From a virus, in the IMG/VR virus record IMGVR_UViG_3300009502_000093, positions 1 to 42,189 of that record: a DNA stretch of 42,189 bases; one strand, written 5' to 3'. Every line of letters starts with the position of its first letter. Position 1 is the first letter of the stretch. Of this stretch, positions 2,802 through 25,500 are shown in pieces. A program made the translations under genes and the position numbers. Below the pieces are notes generated by a model. That model ran no database searches, was not told the DNA's origin, and saw only the letters and a list, made by a program, of their open reading frames with translations.

Positions 2802-2846
2802 TTTGTAAAACTCCTTAGAATTAAATACACTATTATGTGTGTTAGT

Positions 2847-2860
2847 TATTTATATTTATA
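2847..2860 (-). promoter_or_regulatory. Tandem overlapping late promoter boxes
   Basis: The minus strand reads TATAAATATAAATA: two exact copies of TATAAATA sharing two bases (2853-2860 and 2847-2854). They lie about 46 bases upstream of the ATG at 2801, between the stop of the 450-residue gene and the ribosome binding site. Confidence 0.75.
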
Positions 2861-2872
2861 AAACTTCTAAAT

Positions 2873-4225: not shown

Positions 4226-4226
4226 A

Positions 4227-4544: not shown

Positions 4545-4549
4545 GTTAT

Positions 4550-4557
4550 TATTTATA
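4550..4557 (-). promoter_or_regulatory. Late promoter box overlapping the end of the 515-residue gene
   Basis: The minus strand reads TATAAATA, with the TAA stop of the upstream fibre gene inside it. It ends only 5 bases before the ATG at 4544. If used as a T4-type late promoter, transcription would begin at about the start codon, giving a nearly leaderless message for that gene and a normal leader for the 450-residue gene. Confidence 0.5.
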
Positions 4558-6100: not shown

Positions 6101-6125
6101 TGTATTCCTAGATTAGATATGATAG

Positions 6126-6133
6126 TATTTATA
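6126..6133 (-). promoter_or_regulatory. Late promoter box for the 515-residue fibre gene
   Basis: The minus strand reads TATAAATA, overlapping the TAA of the upstream 614-residue gene and lying 26 bases before the ATG at 6100, a normal spacing for a T4-type late promoter. Confidence 0.7.
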
Positions 6134-7973
6134 GAGAACCATAATCATATTGTACGGTACTTACAGTCATACCGATCCAACCATAATCGACATATGGACT
6201 AAAAGTAATTAAAGTTGTTCCTCCTGAACCGCCAGTATTTGCTTTATTAAATGCTGCTTGTGCTAATATATTCGCAGAATTTGCTTTATCAAAAGCAGAA
6301 GCAATACTTACATTTTGTGTGTTATTGACCGAAAACAATACTGAAATATTTGCAGAATTGGTGTTTGCTTGAGTAAAAGCGCCAGTTCCTATTGGTTCTG
6401 CATTTGCTTGATTGTAAGCAGATTGTGCTAGAACATTAGATGCATTTGCTTGAGTATAAGCATTTTGAGCAACAACATTAATTGTATTCGAATAATTATA
6501 AGAATTCGCTGCGAGTATTGATGATGCGTTTGCTTGATTCCATGCTGATTGTATATTCGTATTTTGTGTTGCGTCAATACCAAATATTACAGATATATTT
6601 GCTGCGGCAGTATTGGCAATTAGATTTGCTGTATTTGCTTGTATATATGCTGCATTTGCAGTCGTCCTAGCATATGCATCTGTAGCAACACCAGCAGTAG
6701 TCTGTGATGTTCCATCAGGAAATACAATACCACCAGAAGTTGTATATATTGTCGGTACTGTAATGTTCGCAACAATTAAAGTATTGTTTGAAGTCGTGAA
6801 TGATAACGCAGATACGTTAGAAGTGTATCCTGTGCTGTTTGCAAAGATAACCGAGTTTGCTAATAATCCAGTCAGACTAGTTGCCGTATTTGCTTTATTA
6901 AATGCTGCCTGTGCCAGTACGTTTGCTGAGTTCGCTTTATCAAAAGCAGCATTAGCAGTCTGTCTGGCATAACCATCATTTGAACTACCACCAGCAATCG
7001 TATTTGCAAATGCATATGCAGATTGTGCTATTGTATAAGCAGTATTTGCTAATATGTATGCAGTCTGTGCATTAGTATTTGCTGTATTCGCCTGACTATA
7101 TGCTGAATAAGAAAATACATTAACTGTGTTGGCAAAGTCAAAAGCACCTTGTGCTAGTATATTTGCAGAGTTTGCTTTATTAAATGCTGATTGGGTAAAT
7201 GCTGAATTTGAACTAATCCAAGTATTTTGTGTAGAATCAACGCCTTGAGTTATTACTGTATTGGATTGTGCCGAATTAGCAACACTATAAGCAGAATATG
7301 AATATGTGTTTACTGTATTAGCAAAAGCATATGTAGATTGTGATAATACGTTGGCAGAATTCGCTTGAGTAAATGCTGATTGAGTAAATACATTAACTGT
7401 ATTGGCAAAAGCATATGCAGACTGAGCAAGTATATTAGCTGAGTTAGCTTTATCAAAAGCTGCTTGAGTGAATGTAGAAGAACCAGCAGCATTCGCAGCA
7501 TTATAAGCAGCCTGAGCCAAAATATTTGCTGAATTTGCTTGTGTAAATGCTGCATTAATACTTGTGTTTTGAGTATTATTAACGTTTATTAATAATGCAA
7601 TATTAGCAGAAGCAATATTCGCAACGGAATATGCAGAATTAGCATAAGTCCAAATTACAGCATCGTTTGCTTGTAAAAAAGTATTAGAACTGTATGCATA
7701 TGCATTAACTGTATTGGCAAAAGCATATGCACTCTGAGCAGTCAATAATGCCAAGTTAGCAGTATTTGATGCATAGTATGCAGCATTTGCAACGTTTGCT
7801 GCTGAAATTCTTGAAACAAATGTTTCTGTTGCTAAACGAGTTCCACCTAATGTATAACCATCATGTACTGTTAATGCATAACTCGATATATCAATAATCA
7901 ACTCGCCATCGGCTCCAGTAGTATTTGCTACTACCGTATTTGCTGCCCTTTTGAATTGTATGACTCTTGACAT
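6129..7973 (-). CDS. Long rod-like tail-fibre protein built of AN.AN..AQ repeats
   Basis: This 614-residue protein opens with the same attachment-type domain as the 515-residue fibre (QFKRAANTVVANTTGADGEL, then VHDGYTLGG around 36-45). Nearly all the rest consists of about twenty degenerate repeats of the form A[FY]..ANSAN.LAQ.A[FY]..ANT, which suggests a long fibrous trimer rod. A short non-repetitive island (VIFANSTGYTSNVSALSFTTSNN) interrupts it near residue 375. The C-terminal ~35 residues after a GGSGG linker (YVDYGWIGMTVSTVQYDYG) look like a small cap. The AAGG site upstream is weak, and the gene starts 9 bases after gp15 copy 2. Similar repeats occur in fibre genes of aquatic T4-like phages. 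Confidence 0.75.
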   Translation of the reverse strand: MSRVIQFKRAANTVVANTTGADGELIIDISSYALTVHDGYTLGGTRLATETFVSRISAANVANAAYYASNTANLALLTAQSAYAFANTVNAYAYSSNTFLQANDAVIWTYANSAYSVANIASANIALLINVNNTQNTSINAAFTQANSANILAQAAYNAANAAGSSTFTQAAFDKANSANILAQSAYAFANTVNVFTQSAFTQANSANVLSQSTYAFANTVNTYSYSAYSVANSAQSNTVITQGVDSTQNTWISSNSAFTQSAFNKANSANILAQGAFDFANTVNVFSYSAYSQANTANTNAQTAYILANTAYTIAQSAYAFANTIAGGSSNDGYARQTANAAFDKANSANVLAQAAFNKANTATSLTGLLANSVIFANSTGYTSNVSALSFTTSNNTLIVANITVPTIYTTSGGIVFPDGTSQTTAGVATDAYARTTANAAYIQANTANLIANTAAANISVIFGIDATQNTNIQSAWNQANASSILAANSYNYSNTINVVAQNAYTQANASNVLAQSAYNQANAEPIGTGAFTQANTNSANISVLFSVNNTQNVSIASAFDKANSANILAQAAFNKANTGGSGGTTLITFSPYVDYGWIGMTVSTVQYDYGSL

Positions 7974-7981
7974 TTGATACC

Positions 7982-9079
7982 TTAAATTTCCAAATCTAAT
8001 ATGTTATTCTGTTCTATTCCTAGATCATCTCTACCAATTTGAATATTCAAGTCACCTGAGAAATCTCTTGTTACTACAATTGTCGAATTACTATTAGGAG
8101 TTTCAAATATTGTAGTTGTAGCAACAAATATATTATTTGCATTAGAATCGGTTGCCATTGGTGTAACAACGATTTGTGAGTATTTTACTGGCGAAAAATC
8201 ATAAGAATTAAATATGTAATTGGAATTTGTTACTGAACCAATCAATGGCTGAGAAGAAACAAAATTACCTATTATATTTATAACAGACAGATTTGATCGA
8301 ATTGCATCCCAAGAAATAACTTTTGCTAATGCTATAGCAGTTTCTACCGAATAACCCTGATAAACGATTTCACCTGGACGATAGTTTCCCTTACCTCCTG
8401 GTGTTACATTGAAAACAACAACGTCATTATTAGGAACACTTTGATATAGATTAGTAATAGATGTTTTAATCAAACCTATTTTATTAGCTATACCACCAAA
8501 GATATACCCTTTAACTTTAAATTTTAATGTCCATATAACATATCTAGTTTCATTTTCTCTGTCACCTTCATAATCTACTTCATAATCAATAGAATTTAAT
8601 ATGATAGGTATTTCTTTTACGATACCCATTAAAGGTACCATATCAACTTTTATAGTGAAATCGGGTGTAAAGTATGAAGTGATGTGTTCAATTATTTGAT
8701 TTCCATCTTCTATGTTTCTGGTATAGAGATACAAAGAAAAATCAAAATCATATGGAACAGGATTATACTGACCATTAACACCAGAATTACTATTATAATA
8801 AGTTCTATTGCTGGTATTTTGTTTTCTTGTTGAATCATATGACATATTATTCATTTCATATGAAAATCTTGGAAGTGTGATTTGAACCTTTTTATCCAAA
8901 TCTGGATCACTTTGTAGACGCATTACATATCGTTCTTTTGATGAATAACCAATCGGAACAATGAATCTTTCTTGTTCTGATTGATCTGGGTTGTATCTTA
9001 CTAACGTTATGTTATTGAATAAACTACCAAAAGCAATTGTAAGTTGTCTGATACTTCTGTTATATGTAGTGTTAGCCAT
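7982..9079 (-). CDS. 15: Tail sheath terminator gp15, copy 2
   Basis: This 365-residue paralogue of the gene at 185-1189 has the same gp15 motifs: TYNRSIRQL, GSLFNNITLVRY, ERFIVPIGYSSKERYVMR, QYNPVPYDFDFSLYLYTRNIEDG, and a GKGNYRPGEIVYQG module in its C-terminal part. By eye roughly two thirds of the first 95 residues match copy 1, so this is an old duplication, not an assembly repeat. It is about 30 residues longer, mainly at the C-terminus. It starts 4 bases after gp13 with no clear ribosome binding site, so translation is probably coupled. T4 has a single gp15; whether both copies are in virions, or one has a new role at the neck, cannot be told from sequence. Confidence 0.85.
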   Translation of the reverse strand: MANTTYNRSIRQLTIAFGSLFNNITLVRYNPDQSEQERFIVPIGYSSKERYVMRLQSDPDLDKKVQITLPRFSYEMNNMSYDSTRKQNTSNRTYYNSNSGVNGQYNPVPYDFDFSLYLYTRNIEDGNQIIEHITSYFTPDFTIKVDMVPLMGIVKEIPIILNSIDYEVDYEGDRENETRYVIWTLKFKVKGYIFGGIANKIGLIKTSITNLYQSVPNNDVVVFNVTPGGKGNYRPGEIVYQGYSVETAIALAKVISWDAIRSNLSVINIIGNFVSSQPLIGSVTNSNYIFNSYDFSPVKYSQIVVTPMATDSNANNIFVATTTIFETPNSNSTIVVTRDFSGDLNIQIGRDDLGIEQNNILDLEI

Positions 9080-10127: not shown

Positions 10128-10274
10128 CCAGAGCTATAGCGAATGCCAATGCGGTAGCAATTGCCTGTAATACAGCATTAGATGTTGCAGCATTGGCACT
10201 AGAATTTGATGAAATTGAGATTGATTGGTACGTACATCGATGGAACTAACTGGATTGACTGTTACTGTGACCAT
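10123..10274 (-). pseudogene. Small virion-type gene broken by an apparent one-base frameshift
   Basis: An ATG at 10274 overlaps the TAA of the 119-residue gene (TAATG) and opens a frame reading MVTVTVNPVSSIDVRTNQS. It then turns into atypical sequence and stops at 10134. From about 10224 the -1 frame reads SISISSNSSANAATSNAVL and then QAIATALAFAIALG to a TAA at 10123, which has exactly the Ser/Asn/Ala composition of neighbouring virion proteins; its final 'ALG' resembles the end of the 171-residue protein at 18781-19296. The two halves together make a sensible ~50-residue protein if one base is restored near 10224. A sequencing or assembly error, a true mutation, or a programmed -1 shift are all possible; I saw no convincing slippery heptamer. 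Confidence 0.5.
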
Positions 10275-10633
10275 TATACAGCAGTGTAATAAGTTACACC
10301 CGGATTAACTATCACTTGTCCTTCTAAAACTCTAGTGATATTATTAGAAGCAGGATTTTTTAACAAAACATCATATACCATATTTGCACCGCTAATTGAT
10401 ACAATATTGGCAGTAGTTGCAGAATTTGCAGATAATTGAATAATACCATTATTTGCATCAATAACAGACACAACAAAATTAATTGTGGTATTTGCTGAAA
10501 AATATGAACGTCTTGCAGAACTTGCTATACTAAAAGTAGTAAGATTATAAGGATTTCCATTGGAATCTGTCAACGTTAATTGTGTAATAAACGTTTCGTT
10601 TTGATTAATGAAAATATTGGAATATCCCGCCAT
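10274..10633 (-). CDS. Small virion protein, immunoglobulin-like beta fold likely
   Basis: This 119-residue protein has alternating polar and hydrophobic segments: SNIFINQNETFITQLTLTD, NPYNLTTFSIASSARRSYF, INFVVSVIDANNGIIQLSA, YDVLLKNPASNNITRVLEG, QVIVNPGVTY. The pattern (a polymer of short strands, 'D.NGN.YNLT', 'YDV.L', 'G.V.V.PGVT') matches small beta-sandwich proteins often found among fibre genes of aquatic T4-like phages, usually annotated only as virion proteins. It starts at ATG 10633 with an AGGA site and overlaps the following broken gene. It lies between the adhesin array and gp13. Confidence 0.6.
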   Translation of the reverse strand: MAGYSNIFINQNETFITQLTLTDSNGNPYNLTTFSIASSARRSYFSANTTINFVVSVIDANNGIIQLSANSATTANIVSISGANMVYDVLLKNPASNNITRVLEGQVIVNPGVTYYTAV

Positions 10634-10725: not shown

Positions 10726-11547
10726 TTATGCTGTATAAGTTCCAGTACCACTAGTCCAGAACAGAACAGTATTTGATCCAACTACTTTTGGATATGTTGC
10801 TGCTAAAGTTCCCGTGTAAGTTCCAGAATAATATGTAGTGGGTATTGACAGAATAACCACGCCTGAGCCACCAGAACCACCTGTAGCACCAGCACTACCA
10901 CCACCACCACTTCCAGTATTTGTCGATGCGCTTGTTCCGTTGTAACCGTAATAATCGCCGCCGTTGCCACCGCCAGCAGAACCTGCTCCACCACCAGTAC
11001 CACCAGAGGAGTAAAAACTACCACCTCCACCACCACCAGCATAAGTAACAGATGTTCCTGTTATTGATGATGAAGTTCCTGTACCACCCGCCGCAGCAAA
11101 ATTACCATTTCCTCCTGCACTACTAGAACCACCTCCTCCACCACCAGTACCGGGATTGTATCCATAGCCGCCATCGTTACCTTGACCAGCAGTACCGTAC
11201 CCACCCGAACCTACAGAGTTTCCACCACCACCTGAACCACCATCAACAGTCGCACCACCTCTTGCACCACCAGATCCACCACCAAATGCCGTTAAAGATG
11301 AAAAAATAGTATTTGCACCTCTGACGTTTTGCGCTCCTCCATCACCAACTGTGATAGTATACGTGGTACCAGGTTTAATGGAAATCGTGCCTGTTAAAAA
11401 ACCACCCGCACCACCGCCACCACCACCATTGGAACCGCCACCACCACCACCGACCAAGAGATATGTTACATTGAATGATGACTTACCTGCTGCGGTAAAC
11501 CCATAACCCTTAGACGAAGCAGCACCTAATGTTGATATTATAGGCAT
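10726..11547 (-). CDS. Glycine-rich receptor-binding (adhesin-like) protein E
   Basis: This 273-residue protein has a ~28-residue N-terminal segment, then VTYLLVGGGGGG, then about 200 residues of Gly-rich sequence with GGGG tracts separated by short variable loops (YGYNPGTGG, FYSSGGTGG, DYYGYNGT), and a C-terminal cap (VVILSIPTTYYSGTY ... NTVLFWTSGTGTYTA). Gly-rich tracts of this kind form packed polyglycine II helices in the gp38 adhesin of T4-like phage S16, where the loops between tracts touch the receptor; that comparison is by composition only. It starts 2 bases after the stop of the 173-residue gene, so it is probably translated by coupling. Its cap is of the same type as protein C. Confidence 0.75.
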   Translation of the reverse strand: MPIISTLGAASSKGYGFTAAGKSSFNVTYLLVGGGGGGSNGGGGGGAGGFLTGTISIKPGTTYTITVGDGGAQNVRGANTIFSSLTAFGGGSGGARGGATVDGGSGGGGNSVGSGGYGTAGQGNDGGYGYNPGTGGGGGGSSSAGGNGNFAAAGGTGTSSSITGTSVTYAGGGGGGSFYSSGGTGGGAGSAGGGNGGDYYGYNGTSASTNTGSGGGGSAGATGGSGGSGVVILSIPTTYYSGTYTGTLAATYPKVVGSNTVLFWTSGTGTYTA

Positions 11548-11549
11548 GA

Positions 11550-12071
11550 TTATTTAAATTGAGTTTGCGAAGCAAATACAGAATACGCAGCAGATCCAGT
11601 TTTAACAATACTGTATGTGTAAAAGTCTACTGAGTTTGCATTACCATTTGTTGGTGCAGAACCACCTTGCCATTTAATTGTTGTGATTACACCATCAACG
11701 TTTGCTGTATTGCTGAAGTATGCTGTTGCACCATTAGTATTCAGGAAAGCAACTGTTGTAGATTGTCCAACACCTAATGTAGAGTTAAGCGTTGTTGTCG
11801 TATTACCGACAAAATTTAATGTAAAGTTTGCAGTGGAGTTTGCGGTATAATAGAGAACTGCTTGATTCAATATGTTATAATTGATAGTACCAGTCGCAGC
11901 GGAAGCAGAAACGTTAACAGTTTCATATACATTTGAAATAGCGGTATTTGCTAAAGTTATATTAGTTAATGGATTAGCAAGTTGAGAAGCCGTAATTGAA
12001 TTATTAGCAAGTGATGATGCAGAGAATGAACCATTTGCAATCATTGCCCCTGAAATTTGTGTTAATGACAT
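11550..12071 (-). CDS. Fibre-type virion protein
   Basis: This 173-residue protein has an N-terminal helix-like leader (SLTQISGAMIANGSF ... NNSITASQLANP) of the kind that links fibre domains in this region, then a beta-rich domain: INYNILNQAVLYYTANSTA, NFTLNFVGNTTTTLNSTLG, VGQSTTVAFLNTNGATAYF, IKWQGGSAPTNGNANSVD, FYTYSIVKTGSAAYSVFAS. This domain recurs in virion proteins of many aquatic T4-like phages, and I have no defined function for it. It has an AAGGAT site before the ATG at 12071 and lies between glycine-rich proteins D and E, so it may carry or connect their tips. Confidence 0.7.
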   Translation of the reverse strand: MSLTQISGAMIANGSFSASSLANNSITASQLANPLTNITLANTAISNVYETVNVSASAATGTINYNILNQAVLYYTANSTANFTLNFVGNTTTTLNSTLGVGQSTTVAFLNTNGATAYFSNTANVDGVITTIKWQGGSAPTNGNANSVDFYTYSIVKTGSAAYSVFASQTQFK

Positions 12072-12090
12072 CTTTTATCCTTATTCATTC

Positions 12091-13074
12091 TTATGCTGTA
12101 TACGTCCCGCTTGATGTGAATGTGTGAATAACGTAACCGCCAGTGATTGTGATTGTGCCGCCTGTGGCTCTTGCAACAGTGCCAATATATGCAACAACAA
12201 CTATGCCAGACCCACCTGATGCACCATTAGTAGTGCCGCCACCACCGCCGCCGCCGCCACCACCGCCTGTGTTTGTTGTGCCACTTACAGCATTACCAGA
12301 GGTGTAACCGCCAGAACCGCCGCCACCTAAACCACCCGCAGCGGCAGAACCCCCAGAGTTAGTCCCGCCTCCGCCACCACCAGCGTAGTTTACTGATGAT
12401 CCAGTAATGGTTGATGCAAGGCCAGCACCTCCAGCACCCGCAACACCATCTGTAATAGTAGATGCACCTACCGCACCTGCGCCACCGCCACCGCCACCAA
12501 CTCTTAATGATGAGACATATCCATTGCCGCCAGTATTGCCTTGACCAGAAGTTCCTGCGCCTCCGGGGTTATTTGTGCCTGAATTTGTACCCGAACCTCC
12601 GCCTCCAGAACCGCCAGAAGAGCCTGTTGCAGTAGTGTATGTTGCGCCGCCACCGCCGCCAATTGCGGTTGCTATAGCACCAAATAATGAGTTACTACCA
12701 CTTGTTCCATTAACGCCAGATGTACTACTACCAGCCCCACCAGAACCAACAGTTACTGTATAGGCAGTACCGGGAGAAACAGATACGCTTGATCCAGTCA
12801 AAAAACCACCAGCCCCGCCGCCGCCGCCTTGACCGGAACCGCCACCACCACCACCTCCAGCAACAGTTAAATAGTTTACTAAATAAGTTTGACTTGCTAC
12901 AGCTTGCCAACTAACGCCATTCCAAACTTCAAGTTGACCAAGCGTACTATTCCACCCCACTTGACCATTTCCTGGATTTGATGGGCGACCTGCTGTTGTC
13001 CATGATGGTGGTATAAAAGATGCTACGTTTGCTGATGTAGTCGCTAAACTTGCTAGATTTGCTGCAAATGTCAT
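12091..13074 (-). CDS. Glycine-rich receptor-binding (adhesin-like) protein D
   Basis: This 327-residue protein starts with a short helical leader (FAANLASLATTSANVASFI), then a small domain RPSNPGNGQVGWNSTLGQLE with VWNGVSWQAV at about residues 29-60, common just before the tip of phage fibres. Next come VNYLTVAGGGGGGG, ~200 residues of GGGG tracts and variable loops, and a cap (GIVVVAYIGTVARATGG ... GYVIHTFTSSGTYTA). The ATG overlaps the TGA of protein C by four bases (ATGA). The cap is of the same type as in A and B, while the upstream neighbour C has the other type. A role in host recognition is inferred from the gp38-like composition. Confidence 0.75.
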   Translation of the reverse strand: MTFAANLASLATTSANVASFIPPSWTTAGRPSNPGNGQVGWNSTLGQLEVWNGVSWQAVASQTYLVNYLTVAGGGGGGGSGQGGGGGAGGFLTGSSVSVSPGTAYTVTVGSGGAGSSTSGVNGTSGSNSLFGAIATAIGGGGGATYTTATGSSGGSGGGGSGTNSGTNNPGGAGTSGQGNTGGNGYVSSLRVGGGGGGAGAVGASTITDGVAGAGGAGLASTITGSSVNYAGGGGGGTNSGGSAAAGGLGGGGSGGYTSGNAVSGTTNTGGGGGGGGGGGTTNGASGGSGIVVVAYIGTVARATGGTITITGGYVIHTFTSSGTYTA

Positions 13075-13844
13075 GCTGTGTAAGCCCCCGAAGAGTTAAA
13101 TTGAAGTACGGTGTTGCTTCCGACAATCGTAATCACAGGCGATCCGGTATATACGCCGGAATACTTAGTTGTTGGAACAGACAAAATAACTACACCCGAA
13201 CCACCCGAACCACCAGATGCTACATATCCAATACCATCATTACCAGGACCGTTTCCACCGCCACCACCACCTGTGTTTGGTGTCCCATTACTTCCATTGC
13301 CATATCCACCACCACCAGCACCACCAGCACCATTATTAGACAATCCAGCAGCACCGCCGCCACCCCCATAATATGTTGGGGTTCCGGTTATCGATGATTG
13401 AGTACCAGCACCACCAGCACCACCAGCAAATGCCGTACCACCATTTCCACCACCAACACCACCAGCACCACCGGCTTGATTACTATTAGAACCACTTTGA
13501 CTACCTCCACTGCCTGGTAATGCAGTAATTGTAGAAAATACACTAGATGACCCACCACCACCAACTGTTACACCATAAGAAACACCAACACCCAATACAA
13601 GCGCACCCGTGAGCACAGATCCACCACCCCCACCGCTACCATAAGTGGAGGTAAATTGACTACTACCCCCACCACCACCACCACCGACTACTAAGTACGA
13701 TATATTATAAAGTAGTAAGGGCCATGCGTTAGCACTTTTTGCTTGTTGTTGTTCTGATAATGACCAGATACCATTAGCAGTTCCAGCAACACCTCCAGTA
13801 GAGAGTGTGCGTGTCCCAATTATACCACCATTGCCACGTCTCAT
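13071..13844 (-). CDS. Glycine-rich receptor-binding (adhesin-like) protein C
   Basis: This 257-residue protein has an N-terminal segment RRGNGGIIGTRTLSTGGVAG followed by GIWSLSEQQQAKSANAWP, a motif seen at the start of short phage tip proteins. Then come ISYLVVGGGGGGG, a Gly-rich region with variable loops (SSQFTSTYGSGG, TPTYYGGGG, YGNGSNGTPNTGG), and a C-terminal cap of the 'VVILSVPTTKYSG.Y' type also found in E. Its ATG overlaps the stop of the 116-residue gene (TAATG), and its own stop overlaps the start of D (ATGA), so 116-residue protein, C and D form a tightly coupled set. Confidence 0.75.
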   Translation of the reverse strand: MRRGNGGIIGTRTLSTGGVAGTANGIWSLSEQQQAKSANAWPLLLYNISYLVVGGGGGGGSSQFTSTYGSGGGGGSVLTGALVLGVGVSYGVTVGGGGSSSVFSTITALPGSGGSQSGSNSNQAGGAGGVGGGNGGTAFAGGAGGAGTQSSITGTPTYYGGGGGAAGLSNNGAGGAGGGGYGNGSNGTPNTGGGGGGNGPGNDGIGYVASGGSGGSGVVILSVPTTKYSGVYTGSPVITIVGSNTVLQFNSSGAYTA

Positions 13845-14194
13845 TAGGAAATTACCTCAAAACTGCAAACTCCAGTGAGTGTGTTATTATTGCTTGATGT
13901 CAGACGTAAAGCATCATTTTCTAATAGATAGATACTTTTGCTAATAACGTCGAGTACAGAATTGTTTGGCACATTAACATAAGATGCAATTGGGTATGCG
14001 ACAGCAGCACGATAAATTTCAACATTAACGCTTGCAGTATTTGATGTCTGATTGGAAATATAAAGTGCGTTAATTTTAAACACTTGATTACTTGAAGGTT
14101 GATTATTCGCAATAGCTGTTGGTGTTGTGCTTATCGATAATACTGCTGTATTACCGTTGATAGTTGTTACGTTAACAATATTGGGTGTGGACAT
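13844..14194 (-). CDS. Small beta-rich virion protein, paralogue 2 of 3
   Basis: This 116-residue protein resembles the 105- and 108-residue proteins at 4227-4544 and 18441-18767: YISNQTSNTASVNVEIYRA, YVNVPNNSVLDVISKSIYLL, then a polar strand NDALRLTSSNNNTLTGVCSF and a final EVIS. It has the strongest ribosome binding site of the region (GGAGG, 11 bases before the ATG at 14194). It is coupled to glycine-rich protein C through a TAATG overlap. Function is unknown; its position suggests a subunit that works with a tip protein. Confidence 0.65.
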   Translation of the reverse strand: MSTPNIVNVTTINGNTAVLSISTTPTAIANNQPSSNQVFKINALYISNQTSNTASVNVEIYRAAVAYPIASYVNVPNNSVLDVISKSIYLLENDALRLTSSNNNTLTGVCSFEVIS

Positions 14195-14200
14195 TTCTAA

Positions 14201-14626
14201 TTAACCTCCGAATACTATTGCCACAGCAATAGACTTTCCTGTTGTTGATATGTTATTTGCTAATTGCGCTGTTGTTACCGCATTGTTTGCAATTTGTAGA
14301 GTTCCGACTGCACCTGCTTGAATAGTATTTGAAGTAACTGTACCTGCTGAAGGTGCAATAGTCTGCGTTAATCTATTAAAATAACGAACATATATGTTAT
14401 TAGTACCCACTGGTGGTGCAGAAGTAAATGTGATCGTACCTGCTGAGTAATTAACTGTGTAAGCAGAAGAAGGATTCTGCACAACATTAGCAACAACAAC
14501 CTCAACGTCATTAACAGAAAAAGTTTGTCTAGATAAAGTAAAAGATGTAGTTGCACCATTGCCTGAGAAGTAGTCTATGCCTGGTGTAAAACTTTGTGAT
14601 AACGGTGAATTTCCTAGATATGACAT
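14201..14626 (-). CDS. Short fibre base protein lacking a tip
   Basis: This 141-residue protein has the same opening domain as glycine-rich protein B: MSYLGNSPLSQSFTPG, YFSGNGATTSFTLS, VVQNPSS, TFTSAPPVGTNNIYVRYF. It then continues into a helix-like leader (NTIQAGAVGTLQIANNAVTT AQLANN) and ends quickly with AVAIVFGG. In B the same opening leads on to a glycine-rich tip, so this looks like a base and stalk without an attached tip, perhaps meant to carry a separately encoded one. It has an AAGGAT site and starts 9 bases after B. Confidence 0.7.
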   Translation of the reverse strand: MSYLGNSPLSQSFTPGIDYFSGNGATTSFTLSRQTFSVNDVEVVVANVVQNPSSAYTVNYSAGTITFTSAPPVGTNNIYVRYFNRLTQTIAPSAGTVTSNTIQAGAVGTLQIANNAVTTAQLANNISTTGKSIAVAIVFGG

Positions 14627-14635
14627 GGTTGATCC

Positions 14636-16291
14636 TTAAGCGTTATAAGTGCCAGACGAAGTGAAAGTGTGAATCGTATATCCACCTGAGCTAGTCACTG
14701 TACCGCCTGTGCCACGTTGTGGACCGAGGTAGGAGATGATTACGATACCTGAGCCGCCTGCTCCAGATGTGCCTGAATACGTTGTTCCGCCAGTAATATA
14801 ATCATAAGCGCCACCACCACCGCCGGTGTTTACTGTTCCGCTAGTTGCTGTACCACTTTGTGTTGCAGTGCCTGCTCCGCCACCGCCAGTACCGGGAGTA
14901 CCGCCGGGGGCGCTACCTCCACCAGCATAAGTTACTGACGTTCCGCTAATGGTTGAAGCAGCTCCATTGCCACCATTAATCGTTGAACCCGCAGCACCAG
15001 CACCGCCGCCACCGCCACCATTACCGTATGGGTTTGCTCCTGCTGTTCCGCCTGCATTACCTTGACCAACCGTTCCTGACCCGCCAACCGCAGTCGTTCC
15101 GCCACCGCCTCCCGACCCACCGCTTGCACCTGTAGATACTCCGCCAGCACCACCGCCTAAGGCAGTTGCAAAAACTCCAAAACCAGAATTTGAACCATTA
15201 TTTCCACCACTGTTTGAACCCGTAACAGAAGCACCACCGGCTCCTACAGTAATTGTGTAAAAAGTTCCTGGAGAAACTGTGTAAGAGCCGCTTAATAACC
15301 CACCAGCCCCACCAGCTCCTGCGCTGTTGTATGCTCCTGACCCTGCGCCGCCGCTGCCTCCACCCGCCACAACAAGGTAATTAACAAAATAATTACCAAT
15401 AGGTGAAACGGTGAAACCGGAATAAGCAACCCATCCTTGATTGGAGTCCGCATAGACTAGAGAGACTGCTGCACCATTTGTGTTTATGGTAACATTAGAA
15501 GAATTAGCATTGATCTTTGAACCGTTGGGAAAAATGATAAAATTATTTGTAGCAAATGTACGAGAATAATCAATAAAGGTAACGGTGTTTCCTGTCGATG
15601 GACTCGACGGCAGTGTTGCAGTGACATTACCAGACGCAGTATTAGTATTAACAAAATAACTATTGCTAGAGTATGCAAGAAATGATGTATTTTGAACTGT
15701 TTGCCATGTTGTGCCTGGAACAATAACACCAGGAGCAATTTGCGCCGCAGTGATTGTGTTATTGGCAATATAAGCACCAATAATGGAAGCAGGTGCCGCA
15801 GGAATTGCATTAACAATTGAAGAGAGATAAAAACTCTCAACCTGAATAACATCGTTTAAGTTTGCACCAGTGTTTAATATAACTGTGACACCAGACGTTG
15901 CTGTGTAATCAGTTATACTTAGTAATACACCATTTCTGTATATGTTTATGAAACCTGCTGTATATGAAGGTACTGTGAATGTTGTTTGACCAGATGTTGC
16001 TGTGTATTCAGTATACGTTCTGTATGATGCGGTTGTCACGCCAGATGCAGGAATGCCAAGATAACGAACGGAAATGTTATTTGTACCGACTGGTGGTGCT
16101 TGAGAAAAAGTTAGTGTTGTTCCGTTAACCCCCATTGTGCTTGGATCCTGCACGACCCCAGTGATAGCAACAATCATTGCGGAAGTAGTTCCTGGTGCAA
16201 CAGACATTGTAAACGCTGTGTTCGAACCATTACCTGAAAACGTATCAATTACAAATGATGCTGTTGTCGGACTAGCCCCCAAATATGACAT
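14636..16291 (-). CDS. Glycine-rich receptor-binding (adhesin-like) protein B with fibre base
   Basis: This 551-residue protein is the longest of the five glycine-rich proteins. Domains in order: fibre base MSYLGASPTTASFVIDTFSG ... APPVGTNNISVRYLG (1-80); a second beta domain with TATSGQTTFTVPSYTAG (about 90-155); a helix-like leader IIGAYIANNTITAAQIAPG (165-185); a beta domain TASGNVTATL ... FIDYSRTFATNNFI (about 215-300); VNYLVVAGGG; Gly-rich tip (about 310-510); and cap (YLGPQRGTGGTVTSSGGY, then TIHTFTSSGTYNA). From the FIDYSRTF domain into the start of the Gly region, and in the cap, it is almost identical to protein A, while the loops inside the Gly-rich part differ. It is the only member that keeps base, stalk and tip in one chain. 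Confidence 0.8.
   Translation of the reverse strand: MSYLGASPTTASFVIDTFSGNGSNTAFTMSVAPGTTSAMIVAITGVVQDPSTMGVNGTTLTFSQAPPVGTNNISVRYLGIPASGVTTASYRTYTEYTATSGQTTFTVPSYTAGFINIYRNGVLLSITDYTATSGVTVILNTGANLNDVIQVESFYLSSIVNAIPAAPASIIGAYIANNTITAAQIAPGVIVPGTTWQTVQNTSFLAYSSNSYFVNTNTASGNVTATLPSSPSTGNTVTFIDYSRTFATNNFIIFPNGSKINANSSNVTINTNGAAVSLVYADSNQGWVAYSGFTVSPIGNYFVNYLVVAGGGSGGAGSGAYNSAGAGGAGGLLSGSYTVSPGTFYTITVGAGGASVTGSNSGGNNGSNSGFGVFATALGGGAGGVSTGASGGSGGGGGTTAVGGSGTVGQGNAGGTAGANPYGNGGGGGGAGAAGSTINGGNGAASTISGTSVTYAGGGSAPGGTPGTGGGGAGTATQSGTATSGTVNTGGGGGAYDYITGGTTYSGTSGAGGSGIVIISYLGPQRGTGGTVTSSGGYTIHTFTSSGTYNA
15388..15433. repeat. 46-bp exact direct repeat, copy in adhesin gene B
   Basis: This segment, from the junction of the FIDYSRTF beta domain and the glycine-rich tip of protein B, is identical to 18012-18057 in protein A. 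Similarity continues on both sides with scattered differences. Confidence 0.85.
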
Positions 16292-16310
16292 GTGTTATAC
16301 CTGTTTAAAA

Positions 16311-16682
16311 TTATTTAGTATTAGCAGTATTCGCTGTTGGTACTGCAACCCACGATGTAGTGGCTTCGTCCCATGTGTATGTTTTGCCGTCTGTGGGCAT
16401 TTCAACAGGTGCTTTCCATACCCACGTAGATTGATCGAGTACCCATGAGTTGAATGGTTTTGGTGGATAAAACACATCATGCGTCGAATCGTATGTGTAT
16501 CCAATACCCGCATAGTTACCACGTAGCGGAGTGCCGCCTTGCGTGTGTGTGTTGGCAATCGTATTGTAGGATGTTTTTATCCAAGAACCAGGACTTGTAT
16601 CCACAAATGTTTGAAAGAATTCTGCTTCCGCTACAATAACTTGTGATACTTTACCGTCAACTACTTTTGCGAAGTGTGAAAT
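16311..16682 (-). CDS. Conserved small virion protein with apparent ATT start
   Basis: The product would be 123 residues. The C-terminal part is a recognisable small protein of aquatic T4-like fibre regions: WIKTSYNT, GNYAGIGYTYD, PPKPFNSWVLD, MPTDGKTYTWDEATTSWV. The family normally begins M[SA]HFAK.., and the in-frame sequence upstream encodes SHFAKVVDGKVSQVIVAEAE. The codon in the initiator position is ATT (16682-16680), preceded by a perfect AAGGAG 7 bases away. The only NTG start in frame is a GTG at 16604, which would cut off the conserved first 26 residues and has no ribosome binding site. I therefore annotate from ATT, as known for AUU in infC; a G-to-T mutation or assembly error is the alternative. 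It sits between the HNH gene and protein B. Confidence 0.7.
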   Translation of the reverse strand: MSHFAKVVDGKVSQVIVAEAEFFQTFVDTSPGSWIKTSYNTIANTHTQGGTPLRGNYAGIGYTYDSTHDVFYPPKPFNSWVLDQSTWVWKAPVEMPTDGKTYTWDEATTSWVAVPTANTANTK

Positions 16683-16688
16683 TTTAAT

Positions 16689-16695
16689 TCTCCTT
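16689..16695 (-). promoter_or_regulatory. Ribosome binding site that decides the ATT start
   Basis: The minus strand reads AAGGAGA, overlapping the TAA stop of the HNH gene (TAAGGAG). The spacing from AAGGAG to the ATT at 16682 is 7 bases, which is optimal, and there is no ATG, GTG or TTG in that frame at a usable distance. Confidence 0.75.
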
Positions 16696-17179
16696 AAAAA
16701 TGTTTGGCATATATGCCATGATATTTATCTCGTGCTTCAGTTGCCACGAGATCAGCTAACTCCAAATCTTCAAATGAACCAATATACTTTCTTTTACCAT
16801 TTACCATTAAACTAACTATCCAATTTTGTTTCCATTCGGAATTTTTTGGTGATGACTGTAAAAAAACATTCTTATATGGGGATCTACTTGTTGATCTATG
16901 TTTACTATTTAAACAATTCTGTTGTTGTGTAACTTCTCTTAAATTCTCTATCTTATTATTTAATCTATCGCCATCGATATGATCTATGGTTTTTGGTAAA
17001 TATCCATGATGCCAAAGAAAAATCATACGATGTAACGTCTGTATTTTTCCATCAACAGAAATCCTCTCATATCGTTTCATACCCATAGCAATCACAGCAG
17101 ATTTACCATTCTTCTTTCTAATTAACTTCCCATCTTTATAGTCAAATAAATCTTTTAATTGATCTTGCGTCACACTCAC
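16694..17179 (-). CDS. HNH homing endonuclease with AP2-like DNA-binding domain
   Basis: This 161-residue protein has an HNH core: LHRMIFLWHHG (catalytic-type His50), KTIDHIDGDRLNN (64-75) and KIENLREVTQQQN (76-88), followed by SPYKNVFLQS and a C-terminal AP2-like segment WIVSLMVNGKRKYIGSFED plus ATEARDKYHG (about 102-158). Free-standing HNH-AP2 genes are mobile elements of phage genomes. The start is GTG at 17179 with AGGAG 7 bases upstream; an ATG just before is followed at once by a stop. It lies between the two most similar adhesin genes (A and B), which suggests it entered here or takes part in gene conversion of this region. All key HNH residues seem present, so it is probably active. 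Confidence 0.9.
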   Translation of the reverse strand: MSVTQDQLKDLFDYKDGKLIRKKNGKSAVIAMGMKRYERISVDGKIQTLHRMIFLWHHGYLPKTIDHIDGDRLNNKIENLREVTQQQNCLNSKHRSTSRSPYKNVFLQSSPKNSEWKQNWIVSLMVNGKRKYIGSFEDLELADLVATEARDKYHGIYAKHF

Positions 17180-17213
17180 ATTACTTCTCCTGAAAATTTA
17201 ATTAATATAAAAC

Positions 17214-17221
17214 TATTTATG
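17214..17221 (-). promoter_or_regulatory. Possible late promoter box upstream of the HNH gene
   Basis: The minus strand reads CATAAATA, one mismatch from the late consensus, in the 50-base gap between protein A and the HNH gene. It is tentative because such boxes also arise by chance in AT-rich DNA. Confidence 0.35.
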
Positions 17222-17229
17222 TTGTTAAA

Positions 17230-18438
17230 TTAAGCGTTATAAGTGCCAGACGATGTAAACGTATGGATGGTGTAGCCACCGCTAGAAGTCACCGTACCGC
17301 CTGTTCCACGCTGTGGACCGAGGTAAGAGATGATTACGATGCCTGAACCGCCTGCGCCACCTGCCGCGGCAGTGCCACCGCCACCACCACCACCTCCGCC
17401 ACCAGTATTGGCTGTACCTGCTGTTCCTATAGTATTAGCTGCACCGCCCGCACCGCCGCCACCAGAACCACCTGCACCAGCCGTTCCTCCGGTATAAGCA
17501 CCGCCACCTCCGCCACCCGCATAAGTTACGGCAGAACCAGAAATAGAATTTGATGCGCCAGCACCGCCACCGCCAGAAGTTGAAGTTACAGCGTTAACAC
17601 CGACGGCAGAAGCACCGCCACCACCGCCTGAACCATAACTTGCAGCAGTTGTGGATGTGCCGCCAGCAAAGCCTTGACCTGAAGTTCCTGCTCCGCCAAC
17701 CCTGCTAGTAACGCTATTAGAACCACCCCCACCGCCGCCCGACCCACCAGCGCCGCCATCCGCATTGCTTCCGCCACCCACTCCGCCATAACCGCCACCT
17801 AAAGCAGTATTAATTGTAGAAATAGACGAATTAATACCGACAGAGCCAGATGTAGTGGATGTACCAGCCGCACCACCAGCACCAACAGTAATTGCGTAAC
17901 TAGCCCCAGAAGAAAAAGCTGTTGTGCTTGTTAAAACACCTCCTGCACCGCCACCTCCCCCGCCGTCACCACCACCACCACCACCGCCAGCCACAATAAG
18001 GTAATTAACCGAATAATTACCAATAGGTGAAACGGTGAAACCGGAATAAGCAACCCAACCTTGGTTTGAGTCAATATAAACTAAAGAGACTGCTGCACCA
18101 TTTGTATTAATAATCACATTACTCGTATTAGCATTAATTTTATTGCCATTAGGATTAATAATAAAATTATTAGTAGCAAATGTACGAGAATAATCAATAA
18201 ATGTGATATTATTACCAATACCAGGACTTGCAGTAAGTGTAGCGAATACGTTTCCCGATGCTGTGTTAGTATTAACGGGATAACTATTTGCTGAATATGC
18301 AATAAAGTTTGCCGTTTGTGGTGTATTCCAAGTTGTACCGCCTGCACCAGGCGCCAACATCGAGTTGGTGATGCTTCCTGCTGGAATCAATGATGATACA
18401 TTAGCAATACTTGTTGAGTCTATGTAACTAATAGTCAT
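17230..18438 (-). CDS. Glycine-rich receptor-binding (adhesin-like) protein A
   Basis: This is a 402-residue protein. I choose the ATG at 18438, two bases after the stop of the 108-residue gene; a start ten codons upstream would only extend into that gene. Layout: short leader ISYIDSTSIANVSSLIPAGS with NSMLAPGA (1-35); a beta domain TASGNVFATL ... FIDYSRTFATNNFI (about 45-135); VNYLIVAGGGGGGG; ~220 residues of Gly tracts with variable loops; and a cap identical to that of protein B (YLGPQRGTGGTVTSSGGY, then TIHTFTSSGTYNA). It lacks B's base domains, so it probably docks on another subunit, perhaps the small protein encoded just upstream. Confidence 0.8.
   Translation of the reverse strand: MTISYIDSTSIANVSSLIPAGSITNSMLAPGAGGTTWNTPQTANFIAYSANSYPVNTNTASGNVFATLTASPGIGNNITFIDYSRTFATNNFIINPNGNKINANTSNVIINTNGAAVSLVYIDSNQGWVAYSGFTVSPIGNYSVNYLIVAGGGGGGGDGGGGGGAGGVLTSTTAFSSGASYAITVGAGGAAGTSTTSGSVGINSSISTINTALGGGYGGVGGGSNADGGAGGSGGGGGGSNSVTSRVGGAGTSGQGFAGGTSTTAASYGSGGGGGASAVGVNAVTSTSGGGGAGASNSISGSAVTYAGGGGGGAYTGGTAGAGGSGGGGAGGAANTIGTAGTANTGGGGGGGGGGTAAAGGAGGSGIVIISYLGPQRGTGGTVTSSGGYTIHTFTSSGTYNA
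18012..18057. repeat. 46-bp exact direct repeat, copy in adhesin gene A
   Basis: Identical over 46 bases to 15388-15433 and in the same orientation. With the matching 3' ends of both genes (24 identical bases at 14636-14659 and 17230-17253) it brackets the variable glycine-rich tips. Confidence 0.85.
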
Positions 18439-18440
18439 GA

Positions 18441-18767
18441 TTATGAATTTTCCAATACGCTGAACCAAACATCAGATGCACTATTTGCAGATGTTGTGAC
18501 GGTTACAACATCACTTGGTAAAAGAACTAATTTCTGATCAACACCTGCTACAACTAATGAACCACCAACAGGTACCGTAGCATTTGCAATGATATAAAAA
18601 GTATTAGATGTTCTTGTGACAGTCACATTTGCTGAAATCGGACTATTAATTTTGTTCGAAATAACAAGACCAATACCAACAGATGAAACAATTGCAGGTA
18701 CAGTATATATTACGGTGCCATTTGTTGAAATATTTGCGCTTGGATAACTTTTGAATAGATTGCTCAT
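18441..18767 (-). CDS. Small beta-rich virion protein, paralogue 3 of 3
   Basis: This 108-residue protein has features shared with the 105- and 116-residue proteins: NGTVIYTVPAIVSSVGIGLV, ISNKINSPISANVTVTR, ATVPVGGSLVVAG, then DVVTVTTSANSASDVWFSVL with a closing ENS. It has an AGGAAAA site before the ATG at 18767 and is followed after 2 bases by glycine-rich protein A. The fold is probably a small beta sandwich. No enzymatic motif is seen. Confidence 0.65.
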   Translation of the reverse strand: MSNLFKSYPSANISTNGTVIYTVPAIVSSVGIGLVISNKINSPISANVTVTRTSNTFYIIANATVPVGGSLVVAGVDQKLVLLPSDVVTVTTSANSASDVWFSVLENS

Positions 18768-18780
18768 GCTGTTTTCCTAT

Positions 18781-19296
18781 TTAACCTAATGCGATTGACA
18801 ATGCTAGTGATAGTGAAGAAACTGCATTTGCCGCATCACTTATTTGTTGTGCTATTTGTGTGTTTGCTTGACCTGATAGTGAATTTGCTGATAATATTGT
18901 TAGTGTTGTGTTACCCGTCACACTCAACGCATTTGTTGCATTCAAAGTCAAAAATGATGCAGAATTTGCATACATTGTGTTTGATGAAATATTTCCAATA
19001 GCGATTTCATTCAGATTTAGGGTAGTATTACCAGATACAGTTAAATTACCAGAAATGATTGCATCACGAGAAACTTGTAACGCTTGGCCGCTACCGGAGA
19101 TTACTACATTACCTGTAAACAATGAGTTGTTGGAGACTTGTAAACCCGTACCCGGAGAGTTTAATGTCAATAAACCAGTATCTTTAGTGTAATTATATTT
19201 ACCGAGATTGTCGATTTCCTGTGTGAGTTGGTTCATTGTCAGAACCAAATCTCCAAACGTATTACTATAGGAAAGTAAAGATACTAGATTTGCCAT
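18781..19296 (-). CDS. Fibre-like virion protein
   Basis: This 171-residue protein has an N-terminal helix (SYSNTFGDLVLTMNQLTQEI, residues about 9-28), typical of a trimerising or docking segment, followed by short beta repeats of the form SGN..VSGN (LFTGNVVISGSG, AIISGNLTVSGNTTLN, ALSVTGNTTLTI) and a C-terminal helix (ISDAANAVSSLSLALSIALG). Proteins of this shape occur after the DUF4815 gene in aquatic T4-like phages and are listed only as virion proteins. The ATG overlaps the stop of the 72-residue gene (TAATG). Confidence 0.65.
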   Translation of the reverse strand: MANLVSLLSYSNTFGDLVLTMNQLTQEIDNLGKYNYTKDTGLLTLNSPGTGLQVSNNSLFTGNVVISGSGQALQVSRDAIISGNLTVSGNTTLNLNEIAIGNISSNTMYANSASFLTLNATNALSVTGNTTLTILSANSLSGQANTQIAQQISDAANAVSSLSLALSIALG

Positions 19297-19524: not shown

Positions 19525-22500
19525 TTATAAACCAGTACCCGATGGTAAAGCGATTGCTCTCATTTCAGTCAAATAAGGAGCATTCGTATTGTCTGACGTA
19601 ATCAATATGATTTTTATTGCAAATTGAATGAACGATTTATATGTCGTTCCATTTGTTGAAGTATAAGAAATATAATTATTTGCAATATTATTGATGCCTG
19701 GCGCATATTCAATTTCTTGTGTATCACCAAAATTCTTAGAATAATATGTGAAATTACTCATTGGCGTCATTAATTGCCACGATCCAGAATCAAATGTTTG
19801 ACTATCCGCTGAACTTAACAATTTATACATCACAATGATATTTGAACCGACCGGACGGTATCCTGCCAAGAATACACGTAAATCGCCGGAATCATTGCCT
19901 GGAGCAAGAACAACTTTCTTGGTGATATATTTAGTTGCCGCATTTCCACCTTTAGGTGAATACTCAGAAACAAGAGATAATGAGGCACCTGTACCAGGAG
20001 ACGTATTTGCATCCGTAATTGTTACTGTTGGTGTTGATAGGTAGCCAGAACCACCATACGTTACATATACAGATTGAATGACACCATTAGCAATGTTTGC
20101 GGAAGCAGTTGCCTGTACACCACCAGTTTGATCTGGTGCAGACACAGAAACAGTTGTTGTGTTGACGTTGTAACCAGCACCACCAGAGACTAATGTGATT
20201 TGAGAATTAGAAAATGGTAAGTTATTGATATTATATTTAACGTTGTAAACAGTTAATCCATCATCAGATAACATTGGTGAAACGTTTGAATCGGCAGATG
20301 TCATCGAAGCATAAACAATAAATGAATTGTTTGAATTTGCTACAAGAACTCTTTCACCTTTATTGTCATTTAATAATACATTTGTTAATTTTGGTGAACC
20401 AAAACGCCCCGGTGCAGTCGATGTTTCCCCTGCATAAGCACCTGTTGAGGAAACTGTTGCATTATATGTATAATTAATAGCAGTAGATGTTGGTAACAAA
20501 TCTGTTGTCGTGATATTATATGCATCTGACAGTATGTTAGACGATGATAATGTGTTATCTAAATTAACAATTGTGTTTGCTTGAACAGTACCGTTTACAA
20601 AATTGGATAATGATTTTCTTGTTGGTAGATTTTTAGGAACAACAAATTGAATCTTAGGTGATTGTGTTGTGTCAAATAGTGCTTGATTAACAACAAACAT
20701 CAATGATTTTGTTGGATCGGCAACCCAAGTAATGGCATTTTGTGATAAGAATAAAGAACCAACATAAGGTGTTGTACCAATTTTAGTAATAACAGATGGT
20801 GTTGCATCTGTTGGTAAATTCTTAACAGAAGAAGAAATTGCGGTAGCACCTTGTGATGCTAGATATACATTATACTCTGTGGAATTTGATTGTAAAATGA
20901 ACGAATATAGTTTACCGGATTGAATAAAGACTGGTGCATCAAATGTAAATTCTGTATATGATGTGGAGTCCAAATAATGCGGTGTCGAAGAGACATTTAC
21001 TTTATCCGGTGTCAGTGAAGCAATAGCATAGTCTAGTGTTTGACCGTTTGGATATCCATTCAGTGTACCAACGATAGACAATTTAACTGGTACGTTAGAT
21101 GTTGTCGGTTTCGATTGGAAAAAGAACTTAACAGAACTTAAAAATACACCATTTGGATAATTGCTCTTATCTACAATAAATGTCTGTGCAACAGGATCAT
21201 ACGGTGTAATCGAATATGATGAAGCAACTAATTGATTTTGTATGTATTGAGTCGATGAGAAAGTGTTTTTAGCAGATGCTATTGAGGGTGCAAAATCCAA
21301 TGCTTGTGATGTTGTTGATAATCCAGAAGCAGTGAATGTTGCCACAGCATATGTTGTTGCTGATGTCGAATCTGTAGAAACTGTTCTATTATCAACACGG
21401 AACTGTCTTTGACCGTTCTGGAATGTTGAAGGCGGAATAGAAAACACAGCAGCAAAGTTACCAATTTCATTTGATGAAATTTGCGGTGCAACACCATTAG
21501 AAATGCTTGTTAGATAATTTGTGTTATTTGACCAATTTTTATTACCACGCATACGGTAAACAGAAGTCAGTGCAGAACCTACTGTCGAGTTGTAGCCAGA
21601 AGAGACTGCAATAGAAGTATCTAAAGTAGCAATTTTAGTCGAACCAACATATGATGTTACATTTGCAGTGTAAGTTGTTGTTGATGTGCCGTTCGTTGAT
21701 GTAACGGAAATTGCAGAACCCGTGTAGAAATTATTTGTATTTGATGCTAACGGACTTAACTGAATTTGTGTTACACCGGTCGTGTAAGTACCACCACCGG
21801 ATACGTTCGATGATGTTCCGTTGTTAGCAGAAACCACACCACCAGACATGTTTAATGTTACACCGTTAATTGTATTTGATTGTGGTGTACCATATGCTGT
21901 TGTGCTTAAGTAATTTCCATTTGAATCGAATTGACCGTTTTGTATTGTTGATAAAGTATTTGCTGTCATACCAACGGCAGACACAAAAGTATACAAACGT
22001 GTATTAGATGTATTTGCGTAATTGTATACATCAACAACTTTACCCAATAGATTCCAGTTACCTGATGACAAGTAACCAATTAAATCACCAGAGTTAAATG
22101 AACCAGTCACACCAGTTAATTCAAGAACTGTGGGTAGTGAGATGTATGGATCAACAATTGTGCTATCAAATGATGTTGTTAGTGGTGTATTCACTTTTAA
22201 TGAACCTGCACGAGCAACTAAATCTTGAGCACGAATGTACGGCTGAATTGCTACATTTGTGATGTAACCATTCGTTGAGTTGTATGTAGATGGTAATTGT
22301 GACCAATAACCAGAAACCGTAGTTTGACTCAGATTCACATAAGTTTGTGTTGAATTGACTGAATAACCAACAACGGATCCAAACGGACCGTTAAACGCAC
22401 CGTGATTGATGACTGATTGCGAATAACTTGTTGACCACTCGGAACCAGGTACGGTTTGCCAATTACCAACACTTAAAATATTCAAGTTATTACTTTGTTG

Positions 22501-25500
22501 ATACACTTGCATATTTGGATCAACTAAAAGTAGATCGGGCGCCTTTGTATTATCAACCCAGTTATCCATTGGTGGATTAACAGTCATCGATCCCTCAAAG
22601 ATCGGTGTGGTGAATGGATTCAAATTAACTGTATTTGATGCCAATTGTTGTGTGATAATTGGTGATTTCACATAAGGTAATGTAAAAATATTTGTGTGCT
22701 GATTAACTGTATTAACACCAAAACCAAGGCTTGTTAGTGAAGTATTGCTGACGTTATTATATCCATTTAACAATACTGAAGATTGCAACGGATAATTTGT
22801 AACTGTTTGTGATGCAGACATTTGTTTATTAACAGTGTCAATTGACGCATTGAAATCTGAGTTTGATGTATCAACAGTTGCAAATGATGAAAAATCATCA
22901 ACAAGAATACCATTCTTGAAACGATTCAATCCATTAGAATCCGGAACTTGCAATGCTTGAGTGTTTTGTTCGAGTATAGAAATACTTGTATAGTATTCTA
23001 TATTGTTAACTCGTGTTTGCAAATTGGAAATGTCTTGCATAGTAAATCTTTGATGCTGAACTGCTTGCAACGAAAGATTTGGAAGAACACCAGCAGGTGC
23101 TTCCGTAGGAATATATGCAGTGTATGGATCATTAAATAGGTTAGATATAACCAAAGAACCGTCTGGTGCAGATGGTGAAGTTGGTATTGTTGATGGAACG
23201 CCATTAACAATTTGAAAACTTTTATCTTTACTCAAAATCAACAAATCATTACGAGCAAGATAATAAGCATAATTGCTATAAAATGATGTTAAATCTTGGG
23301 GTAAATAAACGCCTGTATCATCTGATGCAGGATTACCAGTATATTCAAATGTTCTTGTTGCTGTTGCATTCTTACGTGCTGGTCTCCAATCCAAGCAATC
23401 ACGCAGAGAATATATGTTGCCATCTTGTGCTGTGTATGTTGGAATTGATCCGTAGTTTTCTGGACTCGTCGAGATAGGTGACAAGTATGACATGCCGGTA
23501 AAGTATCCATCACCACCTGTGTGTTTGTAGTAATCGAAGATAACTAATAGATTACCTTTTGCTTGCGGTGCACCAGGTTTTAACGTAATTCTTGCGTGCT
23601 CATATGAATTGTCACGTTGACCATTATCGAATGTGTAATATGTTGTCACATCATAAGAAGAATTTGACAACATTGTATTTGATGCCGCTGTGTTGGCTGA
23701 TCCAGTATCGATAATTTTACGAATACGTTTTACGTCATTTACATATAATGATTGTGCCGTACCTGGAGTCACCAGACCGCCGTTTGTGATGTAGACTTGT
23801 GCGTTCGTTAAATCAACATATGTGTTACTTGCAACAATACCATCTGGTCCAGAAGTTGAAACAAAAGATGTATTACCCGTTATTAGATTTTTAGCACGAA
23901 CGATTCTATTTGTGTCATCAGCATTAACTACATTCACTTTAGCAATAATTGAAACTGTCATACCTGTAGTAATATTTACTGTATCACCTGCTGTCAGTGT
24001 CAATGTATTTTTATCTGTTGATACACTGATCGAACGACCATTAGTTGAAACAAAAGGTATAACATCGCCCACATTAACTGTAGGCGAAGAAGCATTTGAT
24101 GTACAAACGATTGTGTAATTTTGTTCTATGGCAGAAGTACCTAATGTTCCAGTACCACCAGCAAAACCAACAATGTTCTGTATACCTACAGGTAAAGTTA
24201 TTTGTATTTGTGATTGACCTGAAACATTAGAGAAAGATTTATTTCTGAAAACCTGAGTAGATGAATACAAAGAACCACTCATACTTGCTAAGAAAGGACT
24301 ACCAATCTTGAATATTAATTCCGGTATTCCAGGATTTTGAATATTCGTAGATGTAACCGAAGTGCCAGCAACTTGACTAGTTGTTTTACTTTGAGTATTG
24401 ATGTTTGCTTTTGCATTAATCACTAAAGAATTTGTATTAGCAATTGATGTAGCATTCACTGATGAAAATTTCAACGATACTTTAGATGTTGTGTCTGGTG
24501 TGATCGAGAATGATTTATTAACAGTGAATGTCTTTGTTGATGGTACATATTGCGTAATTGTTCTTGAATCACCTGAAGATGTACCAGAATCAATTGAAAG
24601 TGTAACACCCGTATATGCATTGGCTACGTTACAGAAAACGCCTGTAGTGTCTGTCAGTGTGATTGTTGTTGATGTTGCAGATGTTACGTTTGCAGAAATT
24701 GTGTTAGCAGAAATATCAGTCAGATATGCACGATAAACATAAGATAGAGTATTTGCATCTGTTGTGTTGTGATCGTAAACCAAACCACGCATATAGGCAG
24801 AGCCTACTTTTGTTGAATTGTAGACTACTGTATTCGCATTTGCTATATTTGCATAAGGCACACAATGCAAATCGATAGGCATCAATGTTGTTACATCAAA
24901 TAATCCTTTAACTGTATCGACATAGAGAAAATTACCATAATCCACAAAAACAGGATTTGTATTTTGAGTGACTGTAGTTCTTGCTCTTGTATTTGTTAAT
25001 TTAATTGGTGATTGATTTTCGATTCGATATCCACGTACATATGCAATACCAGGACCAATATTCAGATCATAAACAGCACTATTTGCTGTATTACTTGTTG
25101 GTGTTACATTGAAAGCATTAACGATGAAGTCACCATTTGTGTCATATGTGCGTTTAGCAAAATAATCATCAATTGAAGAATAGACTGTATTATTTGTTTG
25201 TTTAATTATTTGTCCATTGCTTATTTTTAGCAATTGGATAAAACTGTCATCACTACCCAACGTTAATGGTCTAGTTTGTAATGATAGAGTTACTTGATAT
25301 CTGTCTGCACCAGGTGCTTGATAATTTGATGATCCTGTAGCAGGATCAAGAAGTGAACTGTCTGTTGAATAGGTCACTGTAGATTCTACAATATTTAAAC
25401 CAACACGAAGCGAAGGAACATTATCATATTTGTCTAAGATGACTGTTTGTGGTAATACTGTAACAAAATTACCAATTGAATATTGATTTACCGCACCAGA

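Follow-up and report, generated by a model that had tools for sequence, protein, structure and literature searches.

Why would a single phage encode five related glycine-rich proteins in one locus? The question is posed by the window, the whole stretch of 42,189 nucleotides analysed here, which is a 42 kb record of an uncultivated, T4-like virus. All five reading frames are intact and lie on the minus strand: A at 17230-18438 (with an additional TTG upstream, at position 18468), B at 14636-16291, C at 13071-13844, D at 12091-13074 and E at 10726-11547. T4-like baseplate, neck and sheath genes flank the array, as judged by profile matches of the window's ORFs. We find that the adhesin identity of the five genes is well supported, and that they most likely encode tail-tip adhesins, which resemble gp24 of cyanophage Pam3 more than gp38 of phage S16. 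The fuller answer that we favour, and consider fairly probable, is that all five are virion adhesins, that each particle shows several of these tips, and that the locus is an exchangeable rack.

The first-pass annotation described five paralogous glycine-rich proteins built on one plan, and the paralogy holds. A Pfam scan detected PF21722 (Gly_rich_2) in all five, above its curated cut-off of 24.3 bits (36.1-75 bits; E values of 1e-20 to 9e-9, with 1.2e-20 for A, 8e-17 for B and for E, 8.7e-9 for C and 1.4e-19 for D), and it was the sole family matched in the scan of C, D and E. All five also match phrog_2295 of PHROGs, a family without assigned function. The plan itself is looser than first described. 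The entry strand Y[LI].V.GGGGG is present but varies, reading YLVVAGGGSGG in B, and the C-terminal cap exists in two types rather than one: an HTF type, GGY.IHTFTSSGTY.A, in A, B and D, and a GSNT type, GSNTVL.[FW].SG.YTA or similar, in C and E.

What structure does this domain adopt? D and B were modelled as monomers with AlphaFold. The model of D, made from 75 aligned sequences, has a pLDDT of 92.6; that of B is weaker overall (77.3), with modest confidence in its N-terminal 160 residues. The best solved match to D is the tail-tip chain of mycobacteriophage Bxb1 (9d93; Z 14.2, 165 residues), along with the tail fibre of Pam3 (Z 13.2, 168 residues), and the next is the glycine-rich ligand-binding domain of ALK/LTK (Z about 6). 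The C-terminal half of B (residues 297-527) matches the Pam3 fibre at Z 14.5 and Bxb1 9d93 at Z 13.2. A profile of the 75 sequences matches Pam3 gp24 as well (E 4e-5), and this profile was required, as a single-sequence search of solved structures with D missed the glycine-rich domain.

Pam3 gp24 combines a TNF-like domain with a glycine-rich domain of 12 motifs and a hypervariable tip, has been detected in virions by mass spectrometry, and is proposed to bind its receptor through the glycine-rich domain (PMC9608196). The likeness to the window's proteins extends to the TNF-like sandwich and glycine-rich lattice (PDB 7YFW/7YPX; Z 13-14.5 over about 170 residues), to the hypervariable distal loops and to the number of motifs, which the 12 conserved glycine blocks of D equal. 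These blocks are nearly invariant, whereas the loops between them are hypervariable and carry large insertions; mean column entropy is 0.44 bits in glycine columns and 2.21 bits in the other columns of the domain. Loop hypervariability was one of the features that the first-pass annotation proposed to look for in related genomes. In the D model the glycine tracts, where the first-pass annotation had suggested looking for polyglycine-II helices, are non-strand by DSSP, and strands are predicted for the C-terminal cap, which would most simply close the sandwich. We propose that each tip consists of a mount and a TNF-like beta-sandwich projecting some twelve glycine stretches arranged as a lattice, whose joining loops would form a variable receptor-binding face. 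Pam3 differs in having a single tip gene, whose product has a long shaft of helices, and a chaperone of the Tfa type (PMC9608196), whereas in the window there are five genes and the mounts are beta-type or minimal. Neither the D nor the B model contains a long helix such as forms the N-terminal trimer shaft of Pam3 gp24, and scans of the neighbouring genes revealed no clear gene for a Tfa-type chaperone next to each tip. The sole neighbour resembling a fibre-assembly PHROG is a candidate fibre assembly factor at 10274-10633, minus strand (phrog_3304, 'L-shaped tail fiber protein assembly', E 8e-19).

Do the five genes form one fibre operon, as first supposed? They do share one locus, but they are interleaved with an HNH endonuclease gene, a phrog_7759 gene and small putative coupling proteins, all on the minus strand. 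Upstream, the locus is bordered by a conserved protein at 18781-19296 (65-68% identical in the related loci L144 and L147), followed by a small conserved protein at 18441-18767 that is found at the array edge in relatives too (45-49% identical in the same two loci). Between A and B lie the HNH gene at 16694-17179 (PF13392, E 8.6e-16; phrog_99) and the phrog_7759 partner at 16311-16682. HNH genes also occur within the L005 and L026 arrays, and the phrog_7759 partner recurs in many Gly-rich arrays (L005, L009, L012, L018, L023, L026 and L067). Between B and C are a stand-alone protein resembling tail-fibre N-termini at 14201-14626 (phrog_18673 tail fibre, E 5e-10; 39-42% matches at the same locus in L144 and L147) and, directly before C, a small putative coupling protein at 13844-14194, a relative of which precedes a Gly-rich gene in L067. 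C overlaps D by 4 nt, and a phrog_5906 protein at 11550-12071, with a relative inside the L020 array, separates D from E.

Several other features of the window deserve mention. In the phrog_7759 gene, the neighbour of the HNH gene, an ATT (Ile) codon takes the exact place of the initiator Met of seven homologues and is closely preceded by AGGAG, which makes the ATT a candidate AUU start codon. The T4-type late promoter core TATAAATA occurs seven times, always on the minus strand and never in the array, a count equal to chance, and several of these sites directly precede genes; sigma-70-like sites were at chance level in a motif scan. The tail sheath stabiliser is present in two copies, at 185-1192 and 7982-9079 (minus strand; phrog_227, both E <1e-68), which flank fibre-like genes at 2160-7973; several relatives have head-closure and stabiliser genes immediately after the neck gene. 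The region at 2160-7973 may be a second fibre cassette, and its gene at 4553-6100 (minus strand) has a phrog_9648 tail-protein domain, the same PHROG that the B mount matches. The 2181-aa gene at 19525-26070 corresponds to two ORFs of 1830 and 721 aa in L144 (11381-19067). Finally, L063, a contig of 11.2 kb that belongs to a different IMG/VR record, encodes proteins 100% identical to those of the window from E through the stabiliser gene.

The best argument for an adhesin function comes from comparison with related genomes, where the first-pass annotation had suggested looking for gain and loss. L144 and L147 share with the window a baseplate wedge protein (73-75%) and the two small array-border proteins. 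Their extensions, L152 and L153, carry no Gly-rich genes at the array site and instead encode paralogues of phrog_4492, a tail-fibre family: five in L152 and two in L153 (to the contig end). Locus and border genes are those of the window, and L152 even has the same number of paralogues, but the receptor domain belongs to another family, most members of which end in an [SA].EL-like motif. That two different tip families occupy one site argues for a shared role of the Gly-rich genes and tail-fibre tips. Both families occur together in L017, L027 and L033. The tail-fibre adhesin reading is supported by the predicted fold, by the mounts, by the place among baseplate and neck genes and by this replacement in relatives, and the locus resembles a rack on which proteins for host attachment can be exchanged. 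With such a rack, phages would trade single tips as well as whole sets, and even the fold of the adhesin would be replaceable.

How common are such arrays? PF21722 was present in 37 of the 40 records first examined, with up to seven domains per record, a figure that is not a prevalence because the records were fetched using D as the query. Among 68 loci that contain such genes, and which include several near-copies and many fragments, the largest Gly-rich cluster contained one gene in 33, two in 14, three in 11, four in 7 and five in 3, which places five at the top of the common range. 'Glycine-rich domain-containing' proteins of uncultured phages are also abundant in a viral structure library. 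Records with the same neck protein mostly lack PF21722; arrays were found in three of them (L067, L083 and L089). When D was compared in translation with phage records, it matched around the mount only, probably because low-complexity filtering removed the Gly-rich domain, and the same search with the cap alone gave no match.

Would one particle display several tips? The mounts bear on this question. The mount of A (residues 27-137) matches XD1 of the CBA120 tailspike TSP4 (7rfv, E 1.8e-7), and the modelled mount of B (residues 192-295) matches XD1 of TSP4 (7rej, Z 13.8) and T4 gp9 (Z 10.2); A and B alone among the five have this mount. The first 80 residues of B resemble the N-termini of phage neck and fibre proteins (Z 6-8). 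Residues 20-60 of D match short adapters weakly (CBA120 TSP3, Z 5.0, and Mtd, Z 4.4; 39-42 residues each), and C and E have little sequence ahead of the entry strand (28 aa in E). XD1 is trimeric and has an apparent spacer role in gp9 and TSP4 (PMC8825819), and the relatives of these mounts suggest that the tips are trimeric. We infer that the five proteins are present in virions, form trimers, bind receptors and are displayed together. The mounts would place tips differently on the fibre or baseplate, A and B through XD1/gp9-type mounts, D through another adapter and C and E through minimal mounts, and if different mounts mean different attachment points, one particle would display several tips and might use several receptors at once. 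Simultaneous display of all five is plausible given the distinct mounts and the precedent of the branched tailspike complex of Ackermannviridae. That complex (CBA120 TSP1-4) likewise has several receptor proteins per locus and the XD1 mount of A and B. Its receptor parts, however, are tailspikes for lipopolysaccharides rather than Gly-rich tips, and its recruiting modules XD2 and XD3 were not seen in the window, specifically among the matches to the B model, whose N-terminal 160 residues are of modest confidence. Among phages that have several receptor-binding proteins, the best described rely on tailspikes for polysaccharides.

Alternatively, the array could be a store of alternative tips, in which mounts compete for one site, one or two tips prevail, and new ones arise by recombination or gene conversion between genes and between phages. 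The shared mount of A and B fits such a store, as do the HNH genes in several arrays and the DNA identity of A and B, which is 84% in the cap and 61% in the core and is compatible with local exchange, or else with a cap that is more strongly constrained. So does a quick tree, in which the paralogues group among the tips of other phages. Most of its branches are weak, but one of 99% support separates C and E from A, B and D, and both groups have relatives in other phages; the window's paralogues fall into at least two old subfamilies. A single local amplification of the five genes is ruled out, since that branch forces at least two origins. Yet the mounts differ among A/B, C, D and E, so competition is not required, all five reading frames are intact, and the scanned ORFs of the window include no recognisable invertase or reverse transcriptase. 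We regard a store of alternatives as unlikely, though the strongest competitor to co-displayed adhesins.

A second alternative is that the Gly-rich domains act as a low-specificity brush that holds abundant surface glycans or lipids, with the copies raising avidity, while other proteins, such as products of 2160-7973, bind the specific receptor. The Bxb1 tail-tip chain Q (PDB 9D93), a top structural match (Z 14.2 to D over 165 residues), is glycine-rich like our proteins and carries polyglycine-rich or 'brush' domains, although it belongs to a siphovirus tail tip of a mycobacterial phage with another mode of attachment. Such mycobacteriophage brush domains are presumed to touch lipid-rich surfaces (PMC13243795). 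However, hypervariable loops and the swap of the site for another tail-fibre family suggest specific recognition, and we consider the brush improbable. That the five genes are merely low-complexity ORFs without real paralogy, as their high glycine content (20.7-34.8%) and a local rise in GC might suggest, is refuted: against a profile built from other viruses only they score 74-214 bits, and the highest scores of shuffles with glycines fixed (A 75, B 29, C 7, D 75 and E 33 bits) each fall well below the gene's own real score, which indicates homology rather than composition, while non-glycine positions are nearly invariant in places across the 75 aligned sequences.

With the five read as tail-tip adhesins, how do they compare with S16 gp38, the model first proposed for them? 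The adhesin part of that proposal stands, but among solved structures Pam3 gp24 and the Bxb1 tail-tip chain come closest. S16/T2-type gp38 probably works similarly, having glycine stretches with variable, receptor-deciding loops, and the Pam3 study itself likens gp24 to S16 gp38 (PMC9608196). In contrast to the window's proteins, gp38 has N-terminal helices that bind gp37 and a beta-helix domain, and it sits at the tip of the gp37 trimer, whereas the window's mounts suggest trimeric tips. S16 gp38 was absent among the fold matches listed, though it may still be related. The domain, the fold, the mount and multi-receptor phages are already known. In the literature searched, the coverage of which is partial, PF21722 had no match and such arrays are not described; new by that measure are the recurrence of a rack of Gly-rich tips and the way in which a different tail-fibre family takes its place at one locus.

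More tentatively, a multi-adhesin rack may be general in a large uncultivated T4-like group: about five tips of one fold, co-displayed through distinct mounts, the set being swapped for another fold, and attachment being polyvalent. A recurrent rack of polyglycine-type tips for which another tail-fibre family can be substituted at the same site would help to account for shifts and expansions of host range in aquatic T4-like phages, and it would provide markers with which to predict host-range change from metagenomes.
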